Below, piece after piece: positions 316-57,353 of a stretch of DNA of 64,000 nt. Location of the stretch: positions 23,958,819 through 24,022,818 of the forward strand of contig OZ037768.1 of NCBI GenBank assembly GCA_964035545.1, written 5' to 3'. A model generated the notes under the pieces. That model worked only from the letters and a program-made list of their open reading frames with translations, searched no databases and was not told the origin of the DNA. A program made the position numbers and the translations under genes. The stretch's first letter is position 1. The number at the start of each line of letters is the position of its first letter. This DNA is from Bugula neritina (taxonomy: Eukaryota; Bryozoa; Gymnolaemata; Cheilostomatida; Bugulidae).

Positions 316-2570
316 GTACACATGAAGTGTACGTGTCTACATGAAGACACATTCGGAGGACTTCTCAAGACTGGCATTGCGCAAATCATAGCCTTAGAGA
401 TGTCCAACATGATTCAGAGTGACCCTAAGGCTGCCCAGAGGATCATCCCGTGGCTCTATACACAGCAGAACTTTCCTCAGAGAGGGTAGGCTTTAGTCTG
501 TTATCTTATGAGAAGTGATATGAGTCATACTATTAGTCTTAATACTATCATACGACTCATAGTATGATATTAGTCATACTATGAGTCGTACTGTTAGTCA
601 TACTATTAGTCATGCTATTAGTCATGGGTTACAGTATGAGTAATGTACAGCTAGGTTTGATGGTTTAATAACTTTATCTTTCTACTCTGAAGATACCGTC
701 AAATAAAAATTAAAAAGTTTTTAGTATAACTCCTTGAAAGAGGTGACTTGTGCTCTACAATATAATATTGTAAGTCATATGAAAGTAACAAACTACCTCA
801 TAATGAACACGCATCACTTTCTAACCTCCAGTCCCAAAGAGTTCCTCGAGTCTATTGACCACGTGCGCTTCCTGTGCTGGTTATACATCGGAGCTCTGAC
901 TCATCACGCTGTCGCTGAGAACGTCTTCAAGACTAAATGTCAGCCGCTGCCTCTGGAGGACGTCAGCAACATCTCCATAATGGCCACGTCCATCATGACG
1001 GGGTTCGTCGAGTACTCCACTTCCTCTGTGGCGTTCATGTCCAGTCTGTTCTACGGCTTCATCCTCTGTCAGGTGAGATAGTGTCAGGTGAGATAGTGTC
1101 AGGTGAGATGGTGTCAGGTGAGATAGTGTCAGGTGAGATAGTGTCAGGTGAGGTGGTGTCAGGTGAGATGGTGTCAGGTGAGATGGTGTCAGGTGAAATG
1201 GTGTCAGGTGATGTGCTGCCAACAAAAACTTGTTCATATATTCTCTCAGCCTATAGAAAGGCATAGGCTAATATATTACTCTGTGTAAAATATTATCAGT
1301 GTACATAATCTCCTGCATTTCTGTATTGCCTGTGGAGGCATTACTTTAGACATGTTTGTTGAACATCTTTTTCTTGCTTTGATTTTCTCTTTGACTTAGA
1401 AATGTTGAAAGTTCTTTGGTTTGAATTCACTAGTCACGGAGATGGTGTGATAGAGCAGCACACTGCAGTACTTGTCCCTCTTTAAACTAACTAGTTTTTT
1501 AGCCTTAGCTCTGAACAATGCGAACTGTAGGTGTGGACCGTATACTGTGAGACCCTCACATTTGACTACGTTGGCTCGGGCCCTGGCAATGACATGGATA
1601 TCACTCAGATTATCTACAACTTCTGGTCGATTGTCTCCCCTACAATTCTCAACATGGTGTCTCACAGCAAAGTGGTGAGTTTCTTTGTAGCCTCAGATCT
1701 TGTGCTCAGCTTGTAGGCTGGACGCGTTTGCTAGCTTTCAATAAATATTGAAACATTTGCTGTATTTTTAGTTGAGAGAGATGATAACTCTGCATGTGCT
1801 GAGTATGATGGAAACCCTCCAGGAATGCCAGTCGTCTGTTGTGGTTAAGGTAAGCTAATGTAACGTACAGACTGGTGTAGCATCTCCACTTTTGTCTTTT
1901 AGTGGAACCATCAACCTTGTCTTCTCATTTCTCATATTGATCCTTGGTTATGGGGTTTCCAAGACTACAGTATGGCATTTTCTGTCTTCCTCTTTCAGGC
2001 TAAATATTGTTTTTGATTTTGTAGTTATCCCCTCTGTGGAGACAACTCCTCTTCACTCATGACACTAAGGTTTGTTTTAAATTAATTCAGTAGTTATAAT
2101 ACACGTTTTTGTTTTGGAATCTTTAAAAAGTTCAAAACTTTATAATTACAGCTGCGGAAAGTTAAACCCTGAGGGTTACATTGTCTAACAAAGGATTGGA
2201 TTTCATATAATATATTATATTAGGACAGACAGTGATGTATTACACTAAAATGTATGTCCACCATCTTAATGAAATAACAGCAGCCAGGGTTGTTATACCT
2301 GCACAGACAGCAAACAAAGTATTTGAACCTTTTACCATAATACACCAATCAATGGATATCAAGCATTCACTGCTGGCTGTGTTATTTGTAATGTACTTTT
2401 AGCTGCCGATCAACATCCTTGTGAGGATACAGAGTTTAGACAACTGGCAGCCGTCTAAGAAGAAAACGGTCAACAAGGCTATTCTGCTCGATTGGATCAA
2501 GAAGACTCAGTTTCGACTCGCTCAGATTGAGATTCAGTCCTCCCGCGCCGTGAACTTTGTCACTATCTAG
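316..2570 (+). CDS. UNC79: UNC79 homologue, C-terminal six exons (gene enters from left edge)
   Basis: UNC79 is a large scaffold subunit that, with UNC80, stabilises and regulates the NALCN sodium-leak channel at the plasma membrane. Exons read from splice sites are 316-485, 832-1072, 1531-1674, 1772-1849, 2025-2069 and 2403-2570 (TAG stop), giving about 281 residues in phase. Recognition rests on the C-terminal tail, where TQFRLAQIEIQSSRAVNF resembles the vertebrate UNC79 end (TQFKMAQVEIQSSEA, from memory). Helical-repeat segments such as HVRFLCWLYIGALTHHAV and IMTGFVEYSTSSVAFMSSLF precede it. The rest of this very long protein (over 2500 residues in vertebrates) must lie left of position 1. 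The intron after exon 832-1072 begins with tandem copies of its own splice donor (separate entry). Family assignment is from memory of the tail and not checked by search. Confidence 0.8.
1068..1210 (+). repeat. 15-bp minisatellite made of repeated UNC79 splice donors
   Basis: About ten tandem copies of GTGTCAGGTGAGATA start exactly at the exon end (..TGTCAG|GTGAGATA). Every copy therefore carries a CAG|GTGA-type 5' splice site identical or nearly identical to the real donor at 1073. The unit is five codons long, but reading into it gives Gln-Val-Arg-stop, so use of a downstream donor would truncate the protein. Confidence 0.9.
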
Positions 2571-3811
2571 AGGACGGTTTGTGATGTGACTCAGTAGGGC
2601 AGACAACTTCTTACAATCATTGAGAGACTAATGTGTCAGTTGATGATTAAGGAAGATAACTCCTAACTAACTGTTGAATTGTGACATGACAGACTGACTC
2701 TAGTGCCCTCAGTTTATTATTAATTGTAGTTATGAGTTTTTATGGTTTTCTTAGATTTCGGGAAAGAAAGAGTAGTCAATTGTTATTGGGAACTGATCTA
2801 AGACACATAGCAGCAGGTTTATACTAAGTATTAAAATAAGTTAAACTATTAGAAGCAGTGGGTTTCTTGACCTTTGAATATTAGGTTTGGGACGTACATG
2901 TTTGCTAAACACCAATTAGTTTTTATTGCCAGTTCTAATTTTAGGTTATCATCAATGATAAAATATATAACAGTGTATTATGTTTTGGGTTGTTATAACT
3001 TTCAGTAGTTGCGCTACTCGCTGATTAAAACTTGTGCTCTTTAATTTTTAGCTTTTATTTATTTTGTGAGTCTGAATTTCTAGTCATGTTCTAGTCGCTA
3101 TCTGCTTTCTGTGATACTCTATTCTGTGGATTTTGTGTTTATGTAACTCTATTAGATGTCTATACGATTTATTATATTATAATATTATCTGTTCTATGTT
3201 TTAGATGTTAATATATGTTATTGTTCAAATGGATTGTATTCAGAAATCTTAAAAGTTGCATCAGCCGTTGAAAGTATCGCATTTGCCATTTAACATAGAC
3301 AGATATTTTCACTGAGTTTTCTACAGTGTGCCTCTATTTCAAGTGAGGACAAAGCTTTCAGTTACAAACTTCTGCAGGATGAAATCATACAAGATTCTTT
3401 CACCTGGTCTCTATTATTCTTGGCTGTTGCTGCTGTGAAGTTGTGTCATTTAACTAGTAAGTGGGGTTAATTGTGGAGTATATATACTATATTGTGAAGT
3501 ATCGCTAGCAATATTACCATGATTTGTGATTAGAAGAATACGAGAAAGTAGAAGTTTGAGATCCCCTTTTAACCCCCTGCAGTACCACAACAGAGTGCAG
3601 GAAGCATCTTTTGTATTTCAGCTGAAGTAAATTGAAGTAAATTAAATTCTTTATATTAAATTTAAATAACAAAGTATCTCAATTAACCTTGTATTTAATA
3701 AATTCAGAAAATGCAATTGAAAGTGGAAAGATAGTTTGATTATCTGCCAATTTCATCAGTTGAGAAGTAAATATTAAGTGATGAAAACATAAATAAAATA
3801 GAGAGCTTTGA
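2571..3811. other. 3' UTR / convergent intergenic region
   Basis: This is the AT-rich space between the UNC79 stop (+) and the 3' end of the first receptor gene (-). No coding region is visible. It must hold the UNC79 3' UTR and polyadenylation site; only a variant ATTAAA near 2830 was noticed. Part may be the 3' UTR of the minus-strand gene. Confidence 0.5.
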
Positions 3812-3817
3812 TTTATT
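3812..3817 (-). terminator. Candidate polyadenylation signal of the first receptor gene
   Basis: AATAAA on the minus strand, about 100 bp downstream of the stop codon at 3920-3922. This is the usual place for a eukaryotic polyadenylation signal. Confidence 0.5.
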
Positions 3818-3919
3818 GAGCAGTTTTTGAGGTTAATATGCCACCATAGGCAGGTATATGTGTGTTGTGACCATCTCATGCATGATACAGAAAATACTGA
3901 AGGATGTCACGCTGACAGT

Positions 3920-6900
3920 CTACCACTCGTCCTCATCTGTCTCGCTGTCAGAGTTTTCCTCCTCCTTTTCCTGGCTTGTGTTCTGGGATTTGGAGTCGGG
4001 TGGCGCAGAGGATTTTCTACCTGAGGTTTGGCGCTCAGTCTTTTGCTTCTTGATCTTTGTTTTCGGTTTTCTTTTCATCTCTGTTTGACCTTGTGATTCA
4101 AGTTCAACCAGATTATCAGCCGTGGAAGATTTACCTAAAAACAAATTCAATCATGTAATTTATTATTGCTACTACTACTGCTACTACTGCTACTGCTACT
4201 ACTATTACTACTAGTACTACTACTACTACTATTACTACTATTACTACTACTACTAGTACTACTACTAGTACTACTACTACTACTACTACTACTACTAGTA
4301 CTACTACTACTACTATTACTACTACTACTAGTACTACTACTAGTACTACTACTACTACTACTGCTGCTGCTGCTACAACTACTGCTATTTCACTTACCAC
4401 ACGGAATGAATCTGGACAGTGTACCCAGGTCCAGCACTAGTATCACAACTATGAGTGTCCCTATCAGCGTGAGACCGATGGTGCCGTAGGCAGGGCCGGA
4501 TTTAGCCTCCTCAGGGGGATAGGTGTGACCATTTTTAATAATAACCGCCTCCTCTATAACAGACATTGTATAATCAAGTACTTGGGGATTTTGTTTATGG
4601 TCTTTTTAAAGGAAACACACATGTGAAGCCAGTTTTATAATACTACCGACTTCAGTCCAGTTATAGACGCACACAGAACTCCTCGCCGCGTGTTGTGTGT
4701 CTGATCAGATGCCGACTGCTTTAGTCATGCACTACGCAGGTAAACTTACCTACGCAGTCAGTAGGCACGCTCAGCCACTGGAGTGTCACGATGTCACAAG
4801 TGGCTATTCTGTACTTGTCACCGTTTATGAACACCAGGTCATCCAAGCAGGTGTAGTTTACAACAGTACCTGACTGGATGACATCCGTGTCTCTATACGC
4901 TCCTTCAACGTCTGGTGGTCTCGGACCTTCACATTTAGTTGCTGCCAGAAAATAGCAGTTATATGTTCAATAGATTTACACCTGACTTGTGTGTCTCCAA
5001 TCTCCACAAGGATTGTCGTTAAAACATAGCATACTATATATGTACATATATTATCATATAAACATACTCTATATGTACATATATTATCATATAAGCACAC
5101 TGCACCTATATTATCATATAAGCACACTGCACCTATATTATCATATAAGCACACTGTACCTATACACGCAGGGAGCTCATCGCTCCAATTCCCATTCACT
5201 TCGCAAGTTAAAATTTTTTTAGTCGACTCGTCAGGAAACTGGTAACCAGGGTTACACTCCACAACAATCTCGTCCTCGTACACACCTTGCTCTGGGGTGA
5301 CGGTGGCGTGTGGTACCGTGTATATGGGACAGGATCGACCTAGAACACAGGCTATATCTGTACACGTGTTACTGTATGTGTTACTGTAGCTACATGTGTT
5401 ACTGCATGTGTTACTGTGGCTACAGGTGTTACTGCATGTGTTACTGTAGCTACAGGTGTTACTGCATGTGTTACTGTGGCTACATGTGTTACTGTATGTG
5501 TTACTGTGGCTACAGGTGTTACTGCATGTGTTACTGTAGCTACAGGTGTTACTGTAGTTGCAGTTACTGTGTATACAGCTTCATTTTAGTTTTTTATTTA
5601 CAATTTGCTATCCAAAAATTCACAATCACTGCAATTCCAGTTGAATCACTTCGATTGTAAACTAAATCACTTTGATTGTACAAGCAAATTGAACATCAGT
5701 AAAAGTGAACACTGTAAAGCACTTACGGACACAGGAGAGCCCTGTGGGTAGCCATATGCCATCTCTGCTACACCAAAACAGTTTCTCCACTTCACCATCC
5801 TGAAAGCTGTATCCAGGCTCACATGAATAGTAATTCATATCTCCCAGTTCATCTAATCCCGGCTTGTTTTTAGGTGTCGTGTCTGGTAAGGCCGGCTGAG
5901 GGCATTTGAAGTCTGTGAGAGAAACAAGAATACTGCAAGTTAAACAACCAGTACTCTGGTTTACATTCTCACTCTTCATCTTTCTTATTGTTTCAACTCT
6001 TTATAATAAAATCTGAAAGTTACAAAACTACGACCTGATAATAAATCTTTCACCAACAGAAAGACACTCTGATCAACTTTGTTCACATGTTTACTCCTCT
6101 AAGAGTCTAAACAGAACCTACTTGTACACTTTCCCAGTTGTGTATTGTTCCAGGTTCCATCGCTGAGACACTCGATAGTCTTCTGTCTATCTCCGTCCGA
6201 AAACAGCATCCCATCGTGACAGGTGAAGGTCACTTGAGATCCGACCACGTTGTTTGTCGTGTCAAACCAGGCATTCTCCACTTCCTGTCCATCCAGGTTG
6301 AGTAGCGGACAGGTAGTTGCTAAAATATGTGCTCATGCAATGAGTCTCCTACCATCCTTTTGATAGGAGTAAAATTACTTGACTTCAAATTCATTCCCTA
6401 ACTAATGAACGTGGATTACTAAAATTCTCTATTACTTTTTATTTCTAAAACTTATTAGAAAAAGCATTATATGGGTTTAAAAACAATTTCTCCAGAAAAG
6501 AATCAAGCTTTTGATTAGCAAAAGTATATGAAAGATATTAACTTTATTTTAAAATTTTATCGAATTAGTTTGAGTTGAGACTAATGTATAATATAAATTA
6601 ATTTGATATATTATACTCACGGACACAGTTGCTAATTTTAGACCAGTAGCCGCCCTCTTCACACTGGATGGTCAGATTTTGTCCAATTCCTTTGAAAATG
6701 TAATTAGCCTCGCAGCTGTAGGTAATTTTAGTTCCAGCATTAACTGGGAACTGGGGCAGAGATATGGCTGAGCCATGAGCTATTTCAGGTGCAGGACCAC
6801 AGACTACAAAATAATGGCATATATTTGTAGCCTGTTGGCAGATATAGTCATAGCATGTGACATATCATGTGACGTGTAGCATGTGACATATCATGTGACA

Positions 6901-9900
6901 TAGCATGTGATGTATCATGTGACATGCAGCATGTGACATATCATGTGACATGTAGCACGTGACAATCATGTGACATGTAGCATGTGACATATCATGTGAC
7001 GTGTAGCATGTGACATATCATGTGACATAGCATATCATAAATCTTACTGGCACTCTTCTTGCAGATGTACGGTAGCAGCTCGTCACAGTTCCTGTCTTTC
7101 CAGAAGCCCTTCACAGACGTACGAGCACACTTATAGAACTCTGGGTATCCCTCAGCAAACTTAGTGAAGTTATTCTCTCTTCCTCCTTTCCACACCCACT
7201 CTTTCAAGTAGTTCTCGTGATAGCCAATCCAAAAGTCTGTTTCATATATGTCATATCTGTAACACACGAGTCTTATCTGTAACATACGAGTCATATTTTT
7301 AATAAAATAATATATCTTTAAACTTTGAGTTAAGCAGTAAAAAGACTGTGTGATCTCAACAAAACTTTTAAGACTTACAATCTGTTTGAGAAATTCTTTT
7401 CATTTCACAAGATAGTGTAAAAGGTCTAAATATCAGGTTAGATTGTGTGATTATCAGTCAAACAGACAAATATTTGCTTACGTCTGCGTTGCAATCCATG
7501 CAGCCTCTTTCTCAGAGGTAACCATGGCAAGGTTGGAGTATCGGTAGTTGCAGGTCTCCTCCGCGTACTCGTAACGGAGTCCCAACGCGTTACCATCAGA
7601 GAAGAAGTAGCAGGCCTCGTTGAACTTTACCCAACCTTCCTCACAGCCACTCTCTACACACATGACAGTACATAGCCTATCCGTATGTAAAAACTTACGT
7701 CTGCGCAATGAAGTTGATCTATGTGACCCACAGGACCACCGAAAACACTATTATTGAGTCAAAAGGCTAAAATTTACAGCAAAAGTCAAAAGTAGTTGAA
7801 ACTGAAACAAAAGTTGAATAACTGACTACAAACAACCCTTTTTAAGTACTAACAGAAGTTAGAGTCTAATAATGAACACTAGTAAACAATATGGCCGACT
7901 GTGAACATCTGTAAACCACATAGAGATTGGGTAGAGCTGCTACTGTTTGACCACACAGATATTGTGAGTTGATAATGTAACATTACCATGACAACCAGAG
8001 AGAGGAATCTCGTAGTCCCACTGTTGATCAGATTCACAGTTAATAGTCATCTCAGTTTCGCCTCCGGGAAAGACGAATCCCTCATTCGTACAGTTGAAGT
8101 AGAGGGCGTGCTCATAGTTGTACTTGGGCAGCACTAAAGAGACGTTTGCCTCCGCAACTGTTAGACCATCACATCCCACCGCTGCCACAATAAACAATAA
8201 ACTGATACCAAAGTCAGCATCAGAAAACTTTCATTTCATTGTAAGATTACATTGTTATTTGGAGTTGTGTTCTATTTGGCAAATGAGGCCATACCGTATT
8301 CATAATATTATACACTCAGTTTTACACTCCATTTCAGACATTTCCAAGCAGAACTAAAAATTAGCCAAGTATGTACTTCACAACAGTTAGTAGTGACTCT
8401 GTATACTACACAACAGTTAGTAGTGACTGTATATACTACACAACAGTTAGTAGTGACTCTGTATACTACACAACAGTTAGTAGTGACTCTGTATACTACA
8501 CAACAGTTAGTAGTGACTCTGTATACTACACAACAGTTAGTAGTGACTCTATATACTACACAACAGTTAGTAGTGACTCTGTATACTACACAACAGTTAG
8601 TAGTGATTCTATATACTACACAACAGTTAGTAGTGACTCTATATACTACACAACAGTTAGTAGTGACTCTGTATACTACACAACAGTTAGTAGTGATTCT
8701 ATATACTACACAACAGTTAGTAGTGACTCTATGTACTACACAACAGTTAGTAGTGACTCTATGTACTACACAACATACTTATGCAGTCCGGAATGGTGCG
8801 GTCCCAGTCGTTATCGACATCAGCACTGAGAGACTGAAGACACAGAGCAGACGTGCCAACCTCTCCGTCCAACTGAGCCGTGCCCTCCTCGCAATACCAC
8901 ACCTGGTAGCTGCCGACAGCCATCCCCTGGGGGCTGTTCCTCTCAAACGTGCTGCTGCCAGTCTCCGGCAAGTTGGGACATTGGATTGCTGCAACAGCAC
9001 ATCAGCTCTTGACACACCTACTTCCTGTTACTCTACTTCCTGTTACTCTACTTCCTGTTACTCTACTTCCTGTTACTCAACTTCCTTTTACTATACTTCC
9101 TCTTACTCAACTTCCTGCTATTCTACTTCCTGCTACTCCACTTCCTGCTATTCTACTTCCTGCTATTCTGCTTCCTGTTACTCTACTTCCTGTTACTCTA
9201 CTTTCTATTTCCTGTTACTCTACTTCTTAGACTAATATCTAACACAGAGCACATATTTAATATTACCCTACCAAAATAAGTTCCAAGTTAAAAAATAATC
9301 ATTATTCGATTTGCCGCATTTTCAACAACTATTTTGACGAGTCAAGTTATTCACGGAGCACCATGTTGGCTGAGGGAGTTTGATGAAGTGACTGAAAAGA
9401 TTATAACCTCAGTACTGCATCGCCACACTCACCTGTACAGTTGAGGGCGGCAATCTCACTAGAGGGCGCCCAGGTGGGTCCAGTTCCCTGACAAGTGATG
9501 GTCTTGGATACCGCATCGTCGGCAAACTTATACCCAGATATACAGGTATAGGTGATAGTGTGTTCATACAAGGTGACCGTGTTGTCCAGAGTGCCGTAGA
9601 ATAAGTAAGGGGGAGGGTCACACCGCACAACTATAAGCATACAGACACGACTTCCTGTTTTTAAAGTTTCTTTACATAAAATGGTACTAGTGTACAGTAA
9701 GAGTAAATTATCATTCCAGTACAGTTTGTGTATAATTAGTTGTGTAACTGTGTAACTAATACAGTGTTGATATCACAGAGTGATCAGAGGAGAAATAGCC
9801 TACTAAACCTACATTTGCAGGGCTCTAGGGGAGGGTTCCAGTAGCCATCACCCTCACACGTGAATATTTTACTGCTAACACCCGGGGCAAACCAAGTGTC

Positions 9901-13734: not shown

Positions 13735-13784
<50 letters not shown>

Positions 13785-21300: not shown

Positions 21301-24300
21301 CATTTATTCCAGAAGATTCACAAGAGGGACTCACTGATACACATCTCCGGTATGAAAGACCACGTGCTATTGGCCAGACAAGTTATCACCTTGGAGAACT
21401 GGCCGTCAGGAAATATGTAGCCTGAGTTACACGTCCACGTGACATTGCTGAGGTAGGTGCTAGCCTGAGTACCAACTATAGCCGCGTTTCTCACAACATG
21501 GGTCAGTCGGTTGAGAGGGGGACACATGGTGGCTGCGATAATATAACACTTTATATTACTACACATAATACTTTATATTACTACATATAATACTTTATAT
21601 TACTACATATAATACTTCATATTACTACATATAATACTTTATATTACTACATATAATACTTCATATTACTATATATAATACTTTATATTACTACATATAA
21701 TACTTTATATTACTACATATAATACTTCATATTACTACATATAATACATTATATTACTACATATAATACTTCATATTACTACATATAATACTTCATATTA
21801 CTACATATAATACTTCATATTACTACACATAGTACTCTATATTACAACTCACGTTGGCAGTTCTCAATAGCCGAGTAGTAAGCTCCTCTGAGACACTCCA
21901 CCACCCTCTCCGTACTCCTATCAGCTCTGAACGAGAACCCTGGTCTACACTTGTATGTGATGTTCTTCCCCACGTCCATCAATTTCGGGATTTCCGGCAC
22001 ATCTGGTCCGCCATTGGCTATGACTGGCGGTGACTCACACACTGGAGGTAGAAACAAGATATACACAGCGTGTTCAGCTACAATAGCGTGTCTATCAGCT
22101 TCCCTCACTAGTTATAGCTTTTTTTACCAAACAATGTTTAAATATCTAGCCGCTACATTCACTTATAACAGCATGAGTGTGTGTTCCCATACAGTACCAA
22201 ACTCATAGATAATCTGCGTGTGCAGCGACAATACCACACCTATGTACATGACTCACTAGTCGGTTTCTTGCAGACGTATGGCATGAGATCCTCACAGTCC
22301 CGGTCCTTCCACACAGCAGAGATGGTGATTCTGGCGCAGCTGTTGGACAACTCCGGATAGCCTTTGTGCCACTTGCTGTAGACTATGGTCTCGTCTCCAA
22401 ACCACGCCCACCCATCTGTCGCTACGTCATAGTGGTAACCTATCCAGTAGTCCCGTAGAGAAACTTCGTACCTGCAGTGGTTGTTTCAGTCTATTGTGAT
22501 ACAGGAGTTAGTTTGATCTTTCAGACCAACGGCCCGGCCGGGACTCAAACCTGTGGCCCGGCTCTTACTATACCAGTGGTGTAACCACTACGACTACTCC
22601 CTACTTGTTTACAGACACACTAACATATGGAGTTCTCAGTCCTACAGTATGGAACTAGTCTCAGTTTATATCATACCTTTATTTTAAACATCTGCATGTG
22701 ACTACTGAGGCTACTTTCATATAAACCTTTTTTATCTAAAGAATCCCTGACACACTTCACTTATGCAGTATTAAATATTCATATATACCTTGCCTATCAT
22801 TTACAGAGAGCGTTAAATGCCAAACAACTTCATTTTATAAAAAAAATTGTGCTCATGCCGTGGAGTTTATGGAATTATAAAGCTAATAGTAATTATTGCT
22901 GATTTTCACAGCATGCTTTTATTATCTTCTGCAACACACAGCCTAATCACTGAGCTGGTGTGAAAGTTTAAAATGGAAAATACTACATAAATAAAGTGTG
23001 TCAGGAATTCCTAAAGCACATCCAACTCGCTGTTACAGCTTCCTGTAGCTACTGCTGTATGTATGATTACTCTGCTAGCAGTTTCCTACCTGCCAGTTCA
23101 GCTGGTTTAGTGTTCCTACACACTTGTTAGATACTGAAGACGCAGTATAACTATACTGACTCCTCAACCAAAGAGCTACTTACGTCTGAGAGAAGATGAA
23201 GAGCCCCTCCTCTGTGCTGTTGATAGTAGCCAGGTGGGCGTTCTTGTAGACGCAGGTTTCCTCGGCGTAGTAATACCTGAGACCCCAGCTTTCGGCATCA
23301 GAGACGTAGTAACAGTGTCCTTCGTACTTTACCCAGCCTTCCTCACATGTGCCCACTATAACATATAGTACCCTTTATATATCCCCCACACAGTACCCTC
23401 TATATATCCCCCACACAGTACCCTCTGTATATCCTCACTACAACATACAGTACCCTCTATATATCCCCCACACAGTACCCTCTGTATATCCTCACTACAA
23501 CACACAGTACCCTCTCTATATCCTCACTATAACACACAGTACCCTCTCTATATCCCCCACACAGTACCCTTTCTATAGTTTATATCCTCACTACAACACA
23601 CACAGTAGTATTTGCCCTACCTTGACACCCTGATATTGGAGGTTCACTATGCCATTGGGAGTTGTGGTCACATTCCATTCTATGAAAGGATTTTCCACCC
23701 GGAAACAGACCTGTTTGGCACACGAGTTTCGACATGGTCTGATACTCACTTCTCAGGAAAGCGTATTCGGAGTTTTCAGGCAGCTCCATATATGGGCATT
23801 GCCGAACTGTGAAACAGAATTGTTCGTTATTTATTATACTCAGACTAGAATCAGGAGTTGTCTCTTCTATGCAGTGTAGTGCAACTCTGACAGACCTAAA
23901 TTAGGAGTTGTCCCATTTAGAGGTCCATTTTATTATTTTCATAACGCTGAAGTGCTGAGGAATTGCTCTTATATCTCTAGAGAAGCAGACAACTGTTTAC
24001 CTAATAATTATTTACATCAAGAAAATAAATTCTTCGACATGGAAAAAAATGTACTTATAGTTGCAGTATATTGGATTAGATAGTATAAGTTTTGTTTTTT
24101 TCATCTATACAGTCAACAGTACATTGGTCCAGATAAATTATTCTCAAGATTTTTGGTGACCAGGAACTTGCGGGTGACAGAAGAAGGAGGAGCTAAGTTA
24201 GCTGACCTTAAATGAGTCAATGTCAGCAGGAGATGAATTTATGAGTAACTAATTCAACAGATGAGTGAGAAGTTGTCTTCTCGTCAAGGGATTCACATGC

Positions 24301-27300
24301 CAATTTCTGGTTTCATTGAACAAAACTTTGAATTTTATGGATTTCAAAACTATTAACTCTTTCTACAATATTGAAACAAAACTGCCAAAACTCAGTCAAC
24401 TTTTACATCTTTAATGGAAAGAGGATTTACTAAGCAAGCACTTGCCCAGCGTTTAGATGGTCAACATTTGTTGCATGTTGCGTCAAACAGGAAACAGTAC
24501 TATAATGATATGTGTCACTCACTTATGCACTCCTCATACAACCCGTCCAGTTTTCCCGAAGCTGCACATTTGCCGCTGACCATGATACCCCCAGTACCTC
24601 TTGTGTAGCCCTCGGTACAGAAGGCGTTGATAGTGGAGCCCACCTGCACGGAGTTGTTGATGTTGTACGCGTCTAGCCCGTCATAGATCACTGTACTGTA
24701 GTTGGAAGGCAAACCCTCGCAATATTGCACTGAAAAAATGGAGGTGTGCATTGTGGGTATTTGTTTTCATGGTTTCCATAGCAACAGTTGCTATTTCAAT
24801 TACGTTGCAGCAAGTTTATTAAGGGGCTGTAATTGATTTGTATAAAACAGCTTCCACAAAACTAATGAACTAATAGCTGGTCCATAGACTATAGAAATGC
24901 GCAGCATTAGAAATAAAATATAAGGTCTGTCTGTTAGTCTGTTTGTCTGTCTGGTTTATTGAACTTCAAGTGTTGATACTGAGCATAATATCACCCCTAG
25001 CAACGCCAACATGTCCTTCCAATATACTACAAGTAGCACCTGCTGTCACATGTCAAGCTGTGTAACACCTGCTGTCACATGTCCAGCTGTGTAACACCTA
25101 CTGTCACAAGTCAAGCTGTGTAGCACCTGCTGTCACATGTCAAGCTGTGTAGCACCTACTGTCACATGTCAGGTTGTTCAGGAAGCTGCCTGACTCCGGC
25201 ACCCACTCCAAGGTCTCGGCATCGCAAGTGATGACCTTGATGGTTGCTACGCCAGAAAACGAGTAGCCATACATGCAGCCATAGGTGACGGCTGTCCCGG
25301 CCAAAGTGGAGATCGTGGACACTACAGAGTGTTGTATGGGAGGCTGATTACCACATCTTGCAGCTGCAAAGTATTCATAACAAATCAAATTACTAAATGT
25401 TTAAAATCTACTGAGATAAAAAAATTCAAGTGCTTTTAGCCAACATTTTAGTTGATTTGGAATATTCTTGAAATACAACATATCATGTATTTTTAAATAT
25501 ATACATCAGAGTGAAAAAATTGTTCAATCATGTTTAATAAAAAGTTTATAGCTCTTAATGTTGATGTTATCAAAAATTCAGCCATGCAGTAAAAACACAT
25601 TATAAACAGTTGTATTGCAACTAAAATTATACAAATACTTCTTAATTTGAATAATTTTTATTGAGCTGTTAGATTATAGTAAATATATTATAGTAAATAT
25701 ATTATATAGTAGATATATTACAGTAAATATATTACAGTAACTATATAACGTACGAAGACAGGGATTTGGTAAGGCACTCCATTCTCCAGACTCCAAACAC
25801 CTAACTTTATAGACGGTTTTGCCATTTGAAAATGTCTCCCCTGGAACTAGGCAACTATATTCCACGACAGTTCCTACAGCTACGTCATCTGTTGTCCTAT
25901 TGGTCCTTTCTGGCACCCCAACGTAGTGGCATTCAGAAACTGCTGACTTGGCTGCCAACAGTATGAATATTGTCAGTATATGCATGACTATATATTCACC
26001 TAGATACATCTGACGTCACTAGTCTTATTACTAACTTGATTAACTTGATTACCTCATTTTAGTCAATTTGTAGAAGCGTTGAATCAATTCGATTCACTTA
26101 AATCAAATTGACAATGACTTATAATCATATTAAATCAAGTTTTACAATTATTGCATCTCAAGTTAGATATATTTTTAAGTTTATAGTTATGGACTATGGT
26201 CATATATGTTGTTAGTTCAATTCATACTTCAAAATCGCTCTATTTATAATTATAGTAATTATAAATAGGTAAAATACAAAACTGATGAAATCTGTACTTA
26301 CTGTATCATACTGACATTGCAAACATTTGAAAAATAAGAAAAATAAATATAAATAAAAACGAAACAGACAGCATGCACAAGGCATTGTTAATGTTAATAT
26401 GACAATGAATATGAATATCAACTCAGTGAGCAATTTTAAGTGTGCACTTATATTTGGAGCTTTTAATAACAACCCACTTACACTAACAGTTAGAGTAAAT
26501 TACAGTTACAGCCAGTGCCGTTTACAGTTACTCTTACTCTTAGACTTAAAGTTAAAGTTACATTTACTGATTTAGTTTTACTGCCAGTAGTAGCTCAGAT
26601 AGTGATAGAAAACAAAAAGTTTTCAAATACGAAAGCAGCTTGCAAAATAAATTCCCTCTACTAAAGAGTAAATCTATATTTTTGTAAACTTTGTCATTAT
26701 TATAGTTATGTTCAAAAAATTATACGAGTATGCCTACTATATCTATATAACGACTTTAAGTAATAACTTAAACTAAGACAGTGGAAAATCCAAAGAAGTG
26801 GTGATGACGAGTCATGTTGAAAATGGACGTCTGCCAGCAGAAGAAAGAGAAGATAACTCGAATAAAGCTGCAGTTTAACAGAATACATAAAAAAGGAAAA
26901 TAAAAGTTCTATAAAAGAAACCTATTTAAAAAGGTCAAAAAAGTCACTCTGTCGAAATATATATTGTTTTGATAACTAGCTCTTTTTGTTGAAGTGAATC
27001 CAAAGACAGTTAGATTTTAATTCTGAAGTTATAAGTTTGGTTTCTACAAACAGTTCAAAAGCAGCTTATTATATACACTATTTATTACACTAAATCTAGT
27101 TATATACAGTGGTTAAGGTGAACTAGTACTCCGGTACGTTGTGCCTTCACCACATTTTCTTGAGGTATCCTAAACTTGGGCATATACAAGGACGTGAGAT
27201 TAGTGCCTAAATGGTTAAAGATTTGATATAAAGCTGGTGATAAAGCTATAGCTCATGGAATATTGAGAGCCAAAACTAGTTGTCGGTAGCAGTTGTCATT

Positions 27301-35600: not shown

Positions 35601-37453
35601 ACAGCTAGCTACACCCCTCTGTCACATCTAGCTACACCACTCTGTCACATATAGTCACACCCCTCTGTCACATCTAGCTACACTTCCCAACTCTTCTTCT
35701 TGGATATTTATAGTGCCAATGACTATTATATAGTGTTATTATAAATTATTATTAAAATGAGCAGCTTATATAAAATGGCGTCATTTTCCAGTGTGCTGAC
35801 TTTCTGTAATGATTCCCAATGAATGGTTTGCTTGAATTTGAAAGAATTTTGTTATTATATAGTAAACTGTAAAGTATATGTTGTGTATGTTTAGATACAC
35901 TTCTTATTCATGTAGATGGAAAACTATATTCAGTTATTGAAAGGAGATAACTCTAGCTACATAATTATATGTTGTTATATTATAAACAGGGGCAGGCATC
36001 TGTGAAGCCATCTTTGCAGTAACACCCATGGAAACTGTGAAAGTTAAGTTTATAGATGACAGAAACAGAGCCCAGCCGAGGTTTAAAGGTTTCTTCCATG
36101 GGGTTGGGATGATAATCAAAGAGCAAGGTAGACACAAGTCTGTTTGATTGCATTACAACATTTTCACAACAGAATAGAATTACTTTATTCTGTTGAAATA
36201 GTGGTAGATTTGTATTTCAGGGGTCAGTGGTGTATACAGCTTTCTATTTCAGGGGTCAGTGGTGTATACAGCTTTGTATTTCAGGGGTCAGTGGTGTATA
36301 CAAGGGGCTGACAGCTACCATGATGAAGCAAGGCTCTAATCAAGCTATCAGATTTTTTGTGGTAGAGTCTTTCAAGGAATGGTACAAGGTAGGGTGACTA
36401 CCCCACGCCCCGCAATGAATATACAAATCTGTACTTTTCAACATTCACTCAGCTATTTATTAAACTATCAACTAATTTTTTCTGAATTTATCTGGTTTTA
36501 ATCAATTTCGGTAAAAATATCAACGCCAAACAAGTATAATATGTTTTTGACTGATTAATAAAATTCAAGTTAAAAGCATTTCGAATGTTAGCTAGCAAGA
36601 TTCTGGGATATTCATGCTGTAACGAAAAGTGAATGCTGATTGGATGCATTCTTTAGCTTCAGCCAATCAGCATACAGGTTGGTGATATTTTACTGTAGGA
36701 TGGAGACTCCAAGAAGCACATACCTAAGCCGGTGGTGGGAGTGTTCGGTGCTATAGCCGGGGCTGCCTCAGTGTACGGTAACACTCCCATTGATGTCGTC
36801 AAAACTAGAATGCAGGTGCGGGTTTACCTGGTTTACGTAATACTCGCATTTCTCAATCAAAACACCCGTTTCGCCAGACAGCTATTAGCACTTCCAAATA
36901 TCACAAGAATGTCAATCATACTGTGTATTGATGTTTTACTTCTTAATAAAAATATTCAGCATAACACGGTGTAAAGATTGAAATTAATTCTTGTTTAATA
37001 CTAACTTTGCAGGTCTACATTGTGCAATATTAAAGGCTTGTCTGCTCCTTATCTCATAGAGTGGGCAACTCCTGAATCTCATATTATTCTATATTTAGGG
37101 CCTCGACGCACATAAATACAAGAATACGCTGGACTGTGCTGTGAAAATATTCAAGAATGAAGGACCTGCAGCGTGAGTGTTTACTGTTAATACTGTAGTT
37201 GTTGGTACTGTAGTTTTTTGTGTATGCACTGTGGTTATTTGTGTACTCATTGTAGCTGCTGCAGTAGTTGCTACTGTACTTACTGTAACTGTTGATATAC
37301 TCACTGTAGCTGTTAATGTACTGGTTATGCTGTTCCAGGTTCTACAAGGGTACTGTACCTCGGCTGGGCAGGGTCTGTCTGGACGTAGCCATCACTTTTA
37401 TGATCTACGACAGTTTTATGGAACTCTTCAACAAAGTTTGGGTGACCGACTAA
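32653..37453 (+). CDS. SLC25A1: Mitochondrial tricarboxylate (citrate) transport protein
   Basis: Eight exons: 32653-32782, 32943-33153, 35456-35541, 35990-36127, 36285-36388, 36699-36815, 37099-37172 and 37339-37453, totalling 975 nt, or 324 residues. It exchanges mitochondrial citrate for malate across the inner membrane, feeding cytosolic acetyl-CoA. Three carrier repeats are visible with their signature motifs [14 protein letters not shown] and TPIDVVK. Long blocks match animal SLC25A1 from memory ([61 protein letters not shown], end KVWVTD). The N-terminal ~40 residues (Ser/Gln-rich) are not conserved. Intron 2 (2.3 kb) holds a MITE. Exon 5 is preceded by two decoy copies of its own acceptor. 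Confidence 0.96.
33165..33315. repeat. TAG/TAC trinucleotide array
   Basis: (TAG)n turning into (TAC)n through ACTAGT steps, starting just after the SLC25A1 exon 2 donor. The change of phase makes it locally self-complementary. Confidence 0.9.
33585..33928. mobile_element. 344-bp MITE with ~69-bp terminal inverted repeats (PIF/Harbinger-like)
   Basis: The left end GCCTAGGGCCACACGGTGCG and the right end are reverse complements for about 69 bp, with one mismatch (CAGAAG versus CACAAG) seen by eye. The element is flanked by the trinucleotide TAA on both sides (33582-33584 and 33929-33931). There is no transposase frame. Length, long TIRs and a TWA-type target duplication fit a non-autonomous PIF/Harbinger-like element. 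A 16-bp palindrome TTTTCGCATGCGAAAA lies inside each TIR. Confidence 0.85.
35555..35690. repeat. ~24-bp tandem array (CTGTCACAGCTAGCTACACC)
   Basis: Five or six copies follow the SLC25A1 exon 3 donor. The splice junction itself is not repeated. Confidence 0.8.
36211..36300 (+). repeat. Three tandem copies of the SLC25A1 exon 5 acceptor
   Basis: A 32-bp unit (TATTTCAG|GGGTCAGTGG TGTATACAGCTT..) occurs three times, with acceptors ending at 36220, 36252 and 36284. Only the third continues into coding sequence (GTGTATACAAGGGGCTG). Use of the first or second would insert 64 or 32 nt and shift the frame. Confidence 0.9.
37173..37335. repeat. TACTGTAGTTGTTGG-type repeat in SLC25A1 last intron
   Basis: Degenerate units built on TACTGTAGTT/TACTGTAACT occupy nearly the whole 166-bp intron between exons 7 and 8. 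Confidence 0.75.
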
Positions 37454-39323: not shown

Positions 39324-39361
<38 letters not shown>

Positions 39362-42300
39362 CTAGCACACAAATTAAGAGCCAATTATAAATTCAATTCT
39401 TCTAAGGTGTGAAGTGGTTATTGACTGAACACAAAAATATTGTGTGTTGTAACTTTCTTTATCTTGGTGTAATTGTGTTATAGTGCTACATTGTAACTGA
39501 GTTAGGTTACAAGGAGATTGTGTTTACCATAGCAACCGGTTGCTATGCACACAACTCTTTAATACACAGACATGAGTTCTGTTTATCGAAATTAGAATAA
39601 GTCTCCAGGAAATTGTCCCTGACAGTCATTAAACTCAAGGGCTGCATATAGTCAGTGTTGTTATGCCTGCTGTGACAGACTTTCAAAAGATCAGCTCATA
39701 TACAAGTATATTAGATTCAATGATAAGGGGCATTGTGTGCGTTGAAGTGGTATTAGTATTAGAAGTGAGATTAGAAATTTTGCTATCACCTCAAATATTT
39801 GCACAAATTTTGGGGTGGAATGTTTATTATAAACAATAGCCTGAGGTCCAGCAACAGCTTGAATATTTTACTTAAATCAGTAGAAAGTTGCATTGAAAAA
39901 TTGAAAATTAATAACTTTTACAAGAATATTACTAACTTTAATACATAATACACCACAGACTGATGTCTTCAGAATATGACCCACTATATAACACATAATA
40001 CACACACACTGATGTCTACAGCTGCCTACTCACCCTTTCATTGGGTGATCTTTACAGATCTCTACATTCAGTCTTTTTGTTCTCTCCTCCAGTCTGGTCT
40101 GAGCCACCTTCATGTACGCCTCCTTGTCGCGGATGGCTTTACGCAGCAACTCAATGTTCCGATCCATGTCCATGATCTCTTGCATCACCTGCAGCAGACA
40201 TCAAGTAATGACTCACAGTCATGTGACCAGCTATAGGCAGTGAGGAACACAGCGGCAGCATTGGTTTACTGTGCCATGCGTATGAAATTGTTTAGATACT
40301 GAGTTTTGAGTATATTTTATTTATAAATATTTTTTTAAAATTATGATGTTTAGATTTTGCATTGAAAGTGACTTTTAAAACAGCAACTTGAAGTTATATC
40401 TGTTTGCAGTACATCAAAATAGTGGACTATAAAGTGACTGTATAACACATATTATGCTGATTGTACTTTAATACAAACCGAAAACATAGTAAGACATATC
40501 ATAATATTATTCTCATAACAAATACAAGAGGAGTTACTTACTCTCTGAAGGTGAGACTGAAGCTTATCTCTAGCATCTGTAGTCTCCCGAATTCTGGTGT
40601 TGAAAGCATTATTCACAGCATTGAACTGGCTCCACATGGCATTGGCACAGGCTCTGAGGCACGCGTCTATCTCGCCCCGTAATCTTTCACTAGCAGCCCT
40701 CTCTCTTTGGGACCTGGCTATGTTGTTCTGAGTGAATTTAATCCAAGAGTATGGAATACTAAGGCTACAAAAGTACAATAAGGCTACAAGAGTGTGGAAT
40801 ACTAAGGCTACAAGAGTGTGGAATACTAAGGCTACAAGAGTGTTGAATACTAAGGCTAAAAGTGTAAGCTTCTCAAACACTAAAACGCTTTGCAACATCT
40901 TTACTAAGTCATCAAACTCAGCTAGAGGGAACAAATTTGCATAGAAATTAAGGCTATGTAGTAACTGCCTCCATTTGAAATTTTCACTGCTGCGTTAGTC
41001 CAGTCTAAGGAGTTTTCTTCTCTCTATCTTAAATCTATCAAGAGACTGATTAGAGTTACCCCCCCCCCCCCCCTATAGACTGCACTAAGCATGTCATCTA
41101 GCCCAGGATTTGTATATAACACCAGCGCATTGTCCCTCTCTATTTATTCACAGAGTTCAATGCATTTACCGCCATATTATTAGTCAAACAAACTAAAACA
41201 AAAGACTGAATGCCCTCCATAACTTTACGAATAAATCTCTTCTGTCGGTATTTATACATTAATTTGAAGTTTAGAACAAGTTTTGAAATAAAGTTAATTG
41301 ATAGGCGGCGTAACAAAACATTTTAGTCTAAAACAAAAAGCATAGTTGTTGATTTAACTGTTCTTTTATTTAAGTTGAGACGGGATTTTGTTGAAGTTTA
41401 TAGAGTGTGTCTGGGGCTATATATAATATAAAGTGAGATGTTAGATATGTACTATACTCTACAGTGCCAGTCAGTGGCTCAAACTAAATACTAATATAAA
41501 TGCTATTACCTGGTTAATGTATAATGTGTTAATGTGTAATGTAATAATGTGTTAATGTGTAATGTAATAATGTGTTAATGTGTAATGAGTCATTGTGTAG
41601 TGAGTTAATGTGTTAATGTGTTAATGTGGTAATGTGTTAATGCAGAAGGTAATGATAGTAAGTCATACAAATGCAACAGTTAAATCCAGGGTGCTGGTAA
41701 TGTGCAATACGCTGTAATGTGAATTAATTGTGTGAAATGCATATTTAGCTTTAGCTCTCTTACGTATTATCTACATTCTCTATTCCAGGATAGTAACCGA
41801 TTCCAACCGAAGAGTTTCTAAGCTGGTGCATCCTGTCGTCAATATTTTGAGCGTGATGTTTGTCCTTGGCATCTTTCTCGCACTCATGGAGAGCGGCTCT
41901 GTTCAATCTAATAATAGATTTAATGTGAGTTTGTAATATATAGTAATGTAATGCACTTAATAGCAATGTAGTGTAATTAGTAATAGTGTAATGTAATTAA
42001 TAGCAATGTAATGTCATTAGTAGTAATGTAACGTAATTAATAGCAATGTAATGCAACGTAATGATAGCTGATATTTAAAATGAAGTTATTGTAACACAAA
42101 AATTAATGACCAACACAAAATATTTAATTTTTAAGAATAATTTAGAACTTTGTTTCATGACGGAGTTATCATTATATATACGAATCTGTAAAAAAGTCTC
42201 TCCTCATTGTTTTGATATTTCGAAGTAATTATTTAATGATTAAAATCAAAATTAAAATAATAATTAATTCAAATCTGTAACTTTTATTGCAACAGATATT

Positions 42301-44544
42301 GAGGCAGCAGTGAGAGAAGCAGCAGCAAGTAAGACGAACGGGGACTCACTTTAGTTGTATGTGAGCTTTCTGTATGCATCTCTTCATCTTTTCTTGACAC
42401 TTCTTGATGACGTCAACTTCCTTTACAAGCTCTTTCTCCACGTCGTCGTGGACCATGTCAATCCCCGTTCTCTTCTCTCGGTGTAGAAGGCACTCCTCAG
42501 CGATGTGGAGCGGATTGGCTGTTGCCATGTACGCCTTCTCCAGCACTCTCTTGTGTTCCTGTGTGGGGAGGATAACTCTTGGATAATATGTATAAACACT
42601 GCTTATTACTTTGCACAGTGTCAAACAGAGCACAGGTTGAATATAAAGTAACAATACTAGATAAAAAGGTTTATCTTTTCAAAAAGCGTTAAACTTTGTT
42701 TATAACCGGGAGATATAAAATATTACATAAGAAAACAATCATATTCAAGTAGCCTTTCCTGTTAACTTTGTACTAGACTTAATTATCAAGCTTGTGAACC
42801 ATTTTCTATTTTAAAAAATATTTTTGTGTCATGATTGAAGCAGCCATATTTGAAGCAAGCTACATCTCTGTTACATTGAACTCTATTTGAACATGTCAAT
42901 CAAGGGTAGCATGGCAGCAGACAGAGTAAATAGAGATCAAGTTTTATATGTACAAAATTTGAGTCTTAATAAACAGACGTTTTTGTTTCATACAAACACC
43001 TTACAAATGAAACGTTATACTTATAAACCAAACCAACACATGTGTTGAATGTTTGTTTATTATACATTGCAATAAATACACAACATAAGATAAATATTTT
43101 ATTTGTACATATCACTACACACTGTTGTCATGGAAAGCCATGTTTGCTAAATGTTAAAACTATTTTCTTAAAACATTTTAAGCAAACATTTAGTAACTTG
43201 AAACATAGTGGCATCTTGTATACTGTTGGTATATTTAGTAAGATGCAATTCTCCTGTAAAGAAATTGCATGGTGTTTGCATAGCAACGCATGACTTCTAA
43301 ACTGAAAGTATTGATTGTAAATTATAAGATGATTTAGTTGACTATTGTAGCCAGTAATTCAATAATGAAACCCACACGAAGACGGGGGAGGGGGGGAGGG
43401 GTAGACTGATATCTTCCCTAAAACTCTTGGAGTTGAGTCTTGGTATAAGTGACAAATCACCACTCGGCTAACTCCCAATTGACTAATCAGCATTCACCAA
43501 ACAAACTCACCTGCAGATTCTCCGTCTCATTCTCCATGGCTCTGATCTCGTTGATCAGCTCCTGCTTCCAGAAGTGAATATCGTCTCTCCTGTTGGCCAG
43601 TTTTCTTGTGTTCTCGGCTTGCCTCCTTCTGGTTCGGTCGTCTGTTTCCTGTTTCCAAAATGGAGGGAAATTAATTATTCATCATACCTGAAGTTAGAGT
43701 GAGTAACTCCAACAAATAAGAACTTCTACAGTTTCCCTAATAAAATGTATCATAGTGATTTTTCAATGACTCACATATGAGTCACAGTTAGATGGAGTGG
43801 ATGTTCAACATAAATTTGGCAGAGTTTAGAAATTTTTTGGACTCTTTGCTTTTCTCACAATTACTAGATTATGTTTAGGTATCAAAACACAAATTTTTAC
43901 ACTCCTTACTGTATATATATGCTATACGCACCCCCTATATATCTCCCCTGTATACACTCCTTTCTACTGAGTGAATTCAACACAGTTTCTCACCTTCACG
44001 GCTCTCCAAGCATCAGCTCTGAGATTATTAGCCTGAGCTCTCTCCCTGTCTGACAGCATGTAGTGGGCCTTGTTGCTGTTGGACCAATCATTGTCAGAGA
44101 ACCTAGCATACACCATGTTCCTGCAACAACAAAAAAACACTTCTTTATACAGTCCAGGCTAACAGGTGGTTGACATTGATCTCAAGGTTAGTTGTGGGTG
44201 AAAGTGAAACTACTGCATCGAAATTCAGTTTTTGTAAAGCAAATTTCTGCAAGCGATACATGATAGAGAAATGCAATGATCTATAAAATATTGCACATTA
44301 TATAGCATCTAACTTTGCAGGAGTGTATAGTACAAACCTTGCAGGGGGTTATAATACCTGACTTTGCAGGAGTGTATAGTACAAACCTGGCAGGGTTGTA
44401 GACGTTTCTAGCATGACTAATGTCAACTGTAACTCCATCCTTGAGGGCTGAGAACTTTGGTGAAGGAGCTTTGATGTAGCTGGGAGAAGGAGATCTCATG
44501 GAGAGGTTAGCTACGGGGGAGATAGATTGGTATGCCACAGCCAT
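39074..44544 (-). CDS. TEKT3: Tektin, tektin-3/5 type
   Basis: Eight exons: 44387-44544, 43994-44120, 43511-43648, 42350-42558, 41764-41907, 40542-40764, 40034-40188 and 39074-39308, totalling 1389 nt, or 462 residues (human TEKT3 is 490). Tektins are coiled-coil filament proteins inside ciliary and flagellar doublet microtubules. Blocks typical of TEKT3/5 are [73 protein letters not shown] and [14 protein letters not shown]. The hallmark nonapeptide RPNVELCRD is changed to RLNVEICKD. The N-terminal ~55 residues (Ser/Pro-rich) are lineage-specific. Assignment to TEKT3 rather than TEKT5 is by resemblance from memory. Exons 1 and 6 have splice-junction repeats beside them. Confidence 0.92.
39329..39361. 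repeat. (TA)n microsatellite
   Basis: About 32 bp of TA dinucleotide just upstream, on the minus strand, of the last tektin exon. Confidence 0.93.
40764..40865 (-). repeat. 24-bp minisatellite repeating the tektin exon 6 acceptor
   Basis: On the minus strand the real junction is TTTTGTAG|CCTTAGTATTCC. Upstream lie four further TAG|CCTTA junction copies in 24-bp units (CTCTTGTAG|CCTTAGTATTC), the last spacing shortened to 19 bp. Acceptor and first exon bases are both repeated; the 19-bp step puts upstream acceptors out of frame. Confidence 0.85.
41510..41642. repeat. TAATGTGTTAATGTGTAATG repeat
   Basis: Tandem 9-11-bp units lie in the tektin intron between exons 5 and 6. A related TAATGTAATTAATAGCAATG array occurs on the other side of exon 5 at about 41940-42065. 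Confidence 0.8.
44318..44395 (-). repeat. Duplicated tektin exon 1 donor
   Basis: On the minus strand the exon end CCCTGCCAG|GTTTGTACTATACACTCC is followed by a second copy, CCCTGCAAGGTTTGTAC..., and a third partial unit containing CTCCTGCAAAGT. The duplicated block spans the 5' splice site. Confidence 0.8.
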
Positions 44545-47155: not shown

Positions 47156-47842
47156 ACTGGTCAGGGTACATTTATATTCATTGGAGTCGTAATCTATATA
47201 GTTTACCTGCCAACAAAGTTCCCTATTAGTTTACATGTTTACAGAAGTTGCTGCTGTAATTTACTCAGTCAACTGTCTTATATAACCTGCTATTGTAATG
47301 CCATTGTTGAGACTGCTGCAGTGAATTGTTAACATACCAAACTGAAATAGTAGCAATGCTTATAGACATTGCTGTGTTGTATCGCAGATATACTCATTGC
47401 GGCTGTTTTAGTGAAAGTATGGGACTCAATCTCTTAGATGCTTCTAGAATCATCTTGGCAAAAGCTAGAGTCTTAAGAAAGCTGTCTTTTTATATATCAA
47501 CATGACATCTTTATGGAAAGGCTATTAATTATGCCAGAAAGCCGAAAAGGAGGTGTGCTTCATTTACTAAACAAATTGTTGATTTGCAAAGATCTCACCT
47601 CTGAAAGTCATTGTTTTACTAAAAATTGCAATGGAGTTGCACAGGGAGGACTTAAACAGAGCAGTCAGTCAGCTGTAACCGGTTATTAGGAAAATGAATA
47701 GAACTTCATTTTTTAGTAAAGACTAGCATAAAAGACTGAGAAAAATACTTCATAGTCAAAAAAGGAGAAATAACTTTAAGATTTCCCCTTCTTGCTATAC
47801 AATAGTTATATATCTGCTGATGTATGATAAAACATGTAAATG

Positions 47843-47844
<2 letters not shown>

Positions 47845-47935
<91 letters not shown>
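47845..47935. repeat. (TA)n microsatellite, ~90 bp
   Basis: Uninterrupted AT dinucleotide run. The Tyr-Ile open frame across it is an artefact. Confidence 0.96.
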
Positions 47936-47936
<1 letters not shown>

Positions 47937-48852
47937 TGTAACTCTAAGATGGGTCATAAGCAGATAGTCAAGTTTTGAGGGAACCATGTTAATAATTGCC
48001 CATAGAGAAGATAACTAACAGTAGAGATAAAGTAACAGCTGAATATTGTACCTTAGACTTTATTTCTAATTACTTGTTCGCAAAAAGTTCCTGGAAATTC
48101 CGATTGACAAGAGTTAGATTAAAGTAGTAAATAAATAACATCATAAATACAATTGTTAGCTGGGTCAGCATACACCGTTAGTCAATAGTATAATAATATC
48201 AATGAAAATAATAACAATCAGCTATCCAAGTATATTATTATAGTATAAGTGCAAAGGGCATGCAACTCCCTGGAAATATTATTTAGTACACGTGGTTTGG
48301 CAACTACCTCGGTGCTCTCGGCTTCCAGAGGTACAGAAAGCACACTATGTCGCCATTTGTAAACATAAGAACCACAAGGTACAGAAATCAGCTGGAATGC
48401 AGCTTCAGAGAGTGCTGACGCAAAGGAGGCAGCATTAGAGAAGTTGGCAGCACGTGTGAAGGAAAACACACAAACAGTGAGAAATACAACAGGGATGAGT
48501 ACTAGCTAGTGAGCTAACAGGCTGCATCTATATAATATATATATCAGTATAATAAAATATATAACTATTGATCCTGGTGATTGGGTGATGGCATAAGTTT
48601 TATGATTTTAGTGATTATAGTCCGCAGTGACGGATTATATGGGGGAGGGGGTGAGCCTCTATTAGTGAATAACTGTCAGTATTAGATGAGTCACCATGTT
48701 GCCATGACAACAAATGTCGTCTGCTGAGTCATTTGGCATAAGTGACTGGAGTCCAGTTATGGTGAGTCACTGTGAGAGACTGTCACTGCGAGTCACTGCA
48801 AGTCACTGTTACAGAGTCACTGCGAGTGGCTGTAAATCACTGTGAGTGTTAG

Positions 48853-57353
<8,501 letters not shown>

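Follow-up and report, generated by a model that had tools for sequence, protein, structure and literature searches.

Splice-site arrays in the window

The window, i.e., the whole stretch of 64,000 nucleotides of the Bugula neritina genome that was analysed (C4:23958819-24022818), lies on chromosome 4 (C4; 24.8 Mb, in an assembly of 215.8 Mb), approximately 0.8 Mb from the chromosome end. Its genes were identified by protein comparison. UNC79 matches solved unc-79 with E=9.5e-66, PACSIN matches syndapin with E=8.5e-89, and the tektin matches solved tektins, the best with E=1.6e-118 and Tektin-3 next. A carrier matches SLC25 proteins (E=2.1e-30); the name SLC25A1 was set aside for it, its best solved relatives being other SLC25 carriers. 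The receptor pieces contain Sushi domains, and the first piece also presents a C-type lectin domain.

Tandem arrays were called with TRF, and those of period at least 7 were counted. An array was considered to straddle a junction when at least 3 exon bases lie inside it. The features of the window are as follows.

832..1072, forward strand: UNC79 exon; donor at 1072/1073, CTGTCAG before the junction and GTGAGATAG after it; spliced product aligned across the junction to Protein unc-79 homolog
1067..1211, forward strand: UNC79 array; 15-bp unit, 9.7 copies, 6 exon bases; donor after 1072
5030..5164, reverse strand: CCP9 array; 27-bp unit beside the exon (33-bp further out), 5 exon bases; covers the donor at 5160 of CCP exon 5160-5339
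7250..7296, reverse strand: CTLD acceptor array; 20-bp unit, 2.3 copies, 7 exon bases; acceptor at 7256 of CTLD exon 7048-7256
23367..23602, reverse strand: CTLD intron array, non-straddling; intron before CTLD exon 23184-23355
25033..25171, reverse strand: CCP2 array; 29-bp unit, 12 exon bases; donor at 25160 of CCP exon 25160-25363
36209..36302, forward strand: SLC25-carrier array; 32-bp unit, 2.9 copies, 18 exon bases; overlies the acceptor, before 36285, of exon 36285-36388
40744..40862, reverse strand: tektin exon 6 array; 24-bp unit, 21 exon bases; acceptor at 40764 of exon 40542-40764
44301..44394, reverse strand: tektin exon 1 array; degenerate 24-bp unit, 70% match, 8 exon bases; donor at 44387 of exon 44387-44544
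52902..53152, reverse strand: PACSIN exon 5 array; 32-bp unit, 7.8 copies, 16 exon bases; acceptor at 52917 of exon 52797-52917
56150..56564, reverse strand: PACSIN exon 2 array; 16-bp unit, 25.9 copies, 4 exon bases; donor at 56561 of exon 56561-56763

An earlier note on this DNA had named nine arrays whose unit would include a splice site and adjoining exon bases. TRF, the sequence, the exon finder and protein comparison bear this out for eight of them, with 4-21 exon bases each. The ninth, given as 23357-23612, drops out: by TRF and the exon finder, the CTLD array at 23367-23602 does not reach the acceptor at 23355 and stops 11 bp away from it. The straddling array at 7250-7296, in turn, was absent from that list. 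Minisatellites consist of head-to-tail units of about 10-100 bp, and the window straddlers have units of 15-32 bp in 2.3-25.9 copies. Elsewhere in the window, 47845-47934 is a perfect AT microsatellite of 45 copies.

Protein alignments continue through the array-bearing junctions of UNC79, PACSIN, the tektin and the carrier, while the CCP and CTLD junctions were placed by means of the exon finder, phase and matches to domains. For tektin exon 6, an acceptor at 40758 was discarded, which leaves a two-residue gap at the junction in the alignment; the exon finder's choice of 40764 scores 6.3 versus 1.9 for 40758, lengthens the protein by two residues and gives the better fit. Outside the genes checked by homology, the exon models are those of a self-trained finder, and long introns may conceal missed exons, so that false junctions, whether from wrong exon models or from assembly expansion, have to be considered. 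Given the alignments, however, together with window arrays of at most 415 bp and a published assembly built, according to PMC11480708, from PacBio reads, such an artefact is highly improbable. The junction-straddling arrays are real and mechanically simple.

Reading frames and competing splice sites

Up to 26 copies of one splice site are found in a gene. In seven of the nine window straddlers (UNC79, PACSIN exon 2, CCP2, the carrier, tektin exon 6, PACSIN exon 5 and the CTLD array at 7250-7296), splicing at the distal copies leads to a stop in the spliced exons, and in these cases the exon-proximal copy yields the conserved protein according to the alignments. The UNC79 array contains nine further donors with scores of 5.6-7.5, each resulting in a stop codon, and the 25 equal-scoring distal donors of PACSIN exon 2 all do the same. 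In both arrays, most or all distal donors score like the proximal one, i.e., a donor is predicted in each unit at the exon end. In the carrier, splicing to the acceptor copy at -32 or at -64 puts the frame out. Given the distal copies break the frame in seven of nine cases, the exon-proximal site must, judging from the reading frames, be the main splice site used.

The frame stays open at the distal donors of CCP9 at +27 and +54 and at a single in-frame distal donor of tektin exon 1, at +24. Weaker sites that are not copies are also open, namely carrier AGs at -57 and -45 and a CCP2 site at -6. Use of the open CCP9 donors (array 5030-5164) would lengthen the stretch between CCP domains by 9 residues for each unit, yielding possible protein variants.

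The two open cases, which could add in-frame peptides, bear on whether arrays at splice sites are selected for, either as insurance against splice-site mutation or for the protein variants they allow. A precedent is human IFI6, in which a minisatellite provides several used donors, as cited in PMC4526556. Selection of this kind is nevertheless very unlikely, as distal copies break the protein in 7/9 cases and the distal GT/AG dinucleotides are not significantly conserved: decay affects 8 of 218 of them versus 143 of 2283 other unit positions (odds ratio 0.57, P=0.14). Nor are these dinucleotides lost more often than other unit positions.

The IFI6 (6-16/G1P3) minisatellite with multiple splice donors (Turri et al. 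1995, cited in PMC4526556) resembles the arrays described here in that a tandem unit carries a 5' splice site, which results in several potential donors. As cited there, it concerns one human gene in which downstream units are used as donors in transcripts, whereas the Bugula arrays occur in several genes of one genome, include acceptors as well, and have distal copies that, for the most part of those examined, break the frame. A literature search of titles and abstract openings turned up no description of arrays across splice junctions as something that occurs throughout a genome.

Rows of 2 to 26 almost identical splice sites that compete within one gene amount to natural experiments on how such sites are chosen. 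They are comparable to the proximity rules treated in PMC9225289, which also concern choice among near-identical competing sites; in the human survey reported there, the downstream, intron-proximal 5' site wins approximately 60% of events. The Bugula reading frames demand the opposite, i.e., the exon-proximal 5' site. At acceptors, exon-proximal choice would mean that the upstream copies are passed over.

A single array lies wholly inside strong exons, versus approximately 20 expected at the density found in introns, and the exon-proximal site is intact in the cases examined. These observations fit the proposal that expansion is tolerated where a splice site stays available, and suggest that expansions in exons are purged by selection while those across borders are spared. 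Tandem expansion can remodel introns without damage to the protein.

Array placement relative to exon edges

The sample amounted to 256.5 kb, comprising the window and 23 loci (192.5 kb outside the window). Five of these loci are random 10-kb stretches (L032-L036), and 18 are stretches around mitochondrial-carrier hits (L037-L054), picked blind to repeats. Exons were predicted with a self-built finder trained on the carrier hits and on the UNC79 and tektin exons. It recovers 50 of 52 carrier segments, which are also its training data, hence this is not an independent score. The finder yielded 214 strong exons, with 7 window exons added or corrected by homology; it gives repeat bases a slightly negative score, and exons made mostly of repeats could go undetected.

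In total, 130 arrays in the sample reached the period threshold of 7, of which 47 belong to the window and 83 to the other loci, and 79 of the 130 lie in the 187 introns. Fifteen intron arrays straddle a junction, nine at donors and six at acceptors. Nine belong to the window and six to the remaining loci (L035, L045 with two, L046, L050 and L053), so that six of the 24 stretches contain straddlers. Beyond the window, two cases are clear, as listed below.

L045:6558-6950: straddling array; 44-bp unit, 23 exon bases
L046:3239-3762: straddling array; 22-bp unit, 23 copies, 6 exon bases

In L053, a single tandem array with a 29-bp unit fills the predicted intron at 4000-4278 almost perfectly, from its donor to its acceptor.

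The number of straddlers was compared with shuffled placement of the arrays, allowing a founding unit to penetrate the exon by up to its period minus 2. Fixed penetration limits of 10, 20 and 30 bases were abandoned, since they gave limit-dependent results (P=0.001, 0.07 and 0.14, respectively, for all arrays). The P values are uncorrected across several related tests, and the question itself was prompted by the window.

Own intron, founding unit placed uniformly, straddling positions allowed: 15 seen, 12.9 expected, P=0.27
Any intron of the same locus: 15 seen, 5.4 expected (2.8x), P=0.00025; window only, 9 versus 2.6, P=0.0008; loci outside the window, 6 versus 2.9, P=0.056
Own intron, restricted to introns whose non-array (residual) sequence is 150 bp or longer: 9 seen, 3.7 expected (2.4x), P=0.0085; donors, 6 versus 1.84, P=0.009; acceptors, 3 versus 1.85, no significant excess; window, 6 versus 2.15, P=0.014; loci outside the window, 3 versus 1.55, P=0.20
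Introns with less than 150 bp residual: 6 seen, 9.2 expected, no excess

Whether straddlers exceed chance depends on the null. The earlier note's contention that random expansion would not hit junctions so often stands against locus-level placement and in introns whose residual reaches 150 bp, yet against own-intron placement the observed number is near expectation, and in the loci outside the window, which provide the fair test given the window gave the original finding, the excess is borderline. The own-intron expectation is high (12.9 of 79) since numerous introns are short and made up mostly of array sequence. An exon score threshold of 8 was preferred to 12, since fewer exons lengthen introns artificially; with 12, the own-intron test gave 14 versus 9.6 (P=0.06; arrays scoring at least 80, 14 versus 8.8, P=0.026).

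The three nulls disagree because the number of arrays per intron hardly varies with residual length, being 0.63 in introns with less than 100 bp residual and 0.29-0.54 in the longer classes. Arrays therefore track the edges of exons more closely than they track intron DNA. Where an intron has 150 bp or more of residual sequence, array density per collapsed kb is 1.84 for straddling arrays, 1.23 at 0-24 bp from the junction, 1.07 at 25-49 bp, 0.41 at 50-99 bp and 0.31 at 100 bp or more. Within introns, 34 arrays start between -2 and +49 bp of a junction, versus 23.6 expected (P=0.004). Straddlers are the end of this broader exon-proximal excess. We read the exon-edge excess as real but modest and greatest in the window, with straddlers as one part of it. 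A raw coverage profile around junctions was also tried and presents no peak there: coverage at window donors is 0.106 at +1..+10 versus 0.262 at +41..+60, and at window acceptors 0.068 at the junction versus 0.232 deeper in the intron.

Two accounts are at stake in these values. Either the arrays are ordinary minisatellites, or a mutational process favouring exon-intron borders, chiefly 5' splice sites, founds tandem duplications there (e.g., when transcription, splicing or chromatin at exon ends gives rise to breaks or slippage). The own-intron result was counted in favour of ordinary minisatellites. Counted against them were the locus-level and long-intron excesses, the surplus of arrays starting from -2 to +49 bp, and the flat number of arrays per intron, a pattern that points to borders rather than length as the apparent driver. 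The density gradient, the donor straddlers of long introns and the locus-level result favour the mutational process. It is opposed by the borderline or non-significant values outside the window, by the absence of an excess in introns with less than 150 bp residual, and by other non-coding DNA, whose 0.55 arrays per kb exceed the density deep in introns. Short exact tandem duplications also argue against a mutation hotspot at borders, as they are rarer near junctions (8, or 0.94/kb) than deep in introns (180, or 2.28/kb).

Splice motifs and the origin of the arrays

A mechanism tied to splice motifs, put forward as one example in the earlier note, found little support. In the 64 arrays that do not touch a junction, donor-like motifs that recur with a score of at least 4 number 4 in sense and 8 in antisense orientation, which suggests the donor motif itself does not seed arrays and counts against a border process; acceptor-like motifs number 11 in sense and 6 in antisense. 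Strong recurrent sense donors (score at least 6) are present in 4 of the 79 arrays within introns, each of which sits at a junction; this was counted in favour of ordinary minisatellites.

Genome-wide, the donor motif AGGTRAG occurs in 6022 triples of short spacing, versus 501 for the reversed motif GARTGGA, 679 for GATRAGG, 767 for GGARTAG, 1454 for AGATRAG and 7347 for GARTAGA. As single words in the sample, these motifs number 85 (AGGTRAG), 55 (GARTGGA), 21 (GATRAGG), 40 (GGARTAG), 62 (AGATRAG) and 86 (GARTAGA). TTTCAG forms 96,940 triples versus 260 for the reversed GACTTT. The match totals are swollen by a few long arrays, and the triples were not accepted as decisive proof of donor enrichment, given GARTAGA outnumbers AGGTRAG and TTTCAG is swamped by satellite. 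Motif permutations in the sample were likewise rejected, their distribution being too uneven for a verdict (median 0 and mean 2.0, versus 6 for the donor motif).

Among the approximately 100 matches listed per motif, the initial 2.13 Mb of C1 holds 15 distinct arrays for AGGTRAG, 1 for GATRAGG, 3 for AGATRAG and 0 for TTTCAG. The contrast of 15 with 1, 3 and 0 among the matches listed was counted against ordinary minisatellites. The 5' flanks of eight of the 15 AGGTRAG arrays were inspected: judged by coding score, three start where an exon ends (8.6-32.7), and visual inspection adds two (L055 and L060, with scores of 0.6 and 1.8), while 5 of 150 random pieces reach a score of 8. The flanks support donor arrays at true junctions, though not decisively. 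The excess of AGGTRAG over its reversal, its 15 arrays and these exon-end starts speak for a border-directed mutational process, and the greater number of GARTAGA triples speaks against it. Taking all the evidence together, we consider such a process rather unlikely. Equally doubtful is the stronger proposition that minisatellites are actively nucleated by the edges of exons, and by 5' splice sites most of all, with approximately 900 donor-bearing arrays genome-wide, a number extrapolated from the matches listed (6022 triples at approximately 6.7 per array). If it were true, the genome would hold a built-in, genome-wide test of spliceosome choice among identical sites.

On balance, the arrays are probably ordinary minisatellites that are purged in exons and tolerated across borders by means of the surviving exon-proximal site. 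Segments of approximately 15-45 bp would have been duplicated in tandem by the routes generally assigned to minisatellites, slippage during replication or the repair of breaks, with the founding unit happening to span an exon-intron border in some cases. Duplications in exons are scarce, presumably lost to selection, while those across borders would be tolerated, given the copy nearest the exon is predicted to retain the exon together with a working splice site. Correct splicing would then need only the choice of the exon-proximal site, as the reading frames indicate. As a first guess, the exon-edge excess could result from persistence, in that conserved DNA at the exon edge would always keep an intact seed copy. 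Direct support for persistence was not found: in an insensitive test on the sample, dispersed repeats are no commoner in deep intron, i.e., no dilution effect was seen.

A further possibility is that some arrays record the birth of their introns, through tandem duplication of exonic sequence holding AGGT. Intron gain by tandem duplication across a border is described in PMC4974935, and the likeness is that the duplication crosses the border and copies the splice signals. In the process described there, one duplication makes a new intron, whereas the Bugula arrays consist of many short copies accumulated inside an intron. Among the 15 straddled introns, four consist almost entirely of array, their remaining sequence amounting to 15-49 bp (L046, PACSIN intron 4, L053 and L050), but the other 11 retain 81-966 bp of other sequence and just 3-30 exon bases lie in the arrays. 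Hence, intron birth is a rather remote explanation.

For ordinary minisatellites, duplication would be more frequent towards chromosome ends, and array coverage in the sample does rise in that direction: it correlates with distance from the chromosome end with a Spearman coefficient of -0.64 (P=0.001) in the 23 loci without the window and -0.68 with it, in a small sample of 18 loci picked by carrier hits and only 5 random ones. Coverage is 0.34 at 0.41 Mb from the end and below 0.01 in the three loci beyond 12 Mb. Human subtelomeric VNTRs, described in PMC7608644 as arrays with units above 15 bp, are likewise concentrated towards chromosome ends. They are GC-rich according to that source (above 60%), whereas the Bugula arrays have a median GC of 0.31-0.38.

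Other repeats were encountered in the motif searches. At C2:168002-170812, among the matches listed, a long array of the 25-bp unit GATAAGGTGAGAGAGTATAGAGTAT lies near the chromosome end. C1 is occupied from 14,695,200 to at least 14,704,555 by a satellite with units of approximately 10 bp, such as TTTCAGTGTG and TTTCAGTATA, which may mark the centromere of chromosome 1. In addition, the small contigs C96, C124, C150, C173, C211 and C222 contain many mitochondrial-carrier matches broken by stop codons, possibly intron-containing genes of another organism or pseudogenes.
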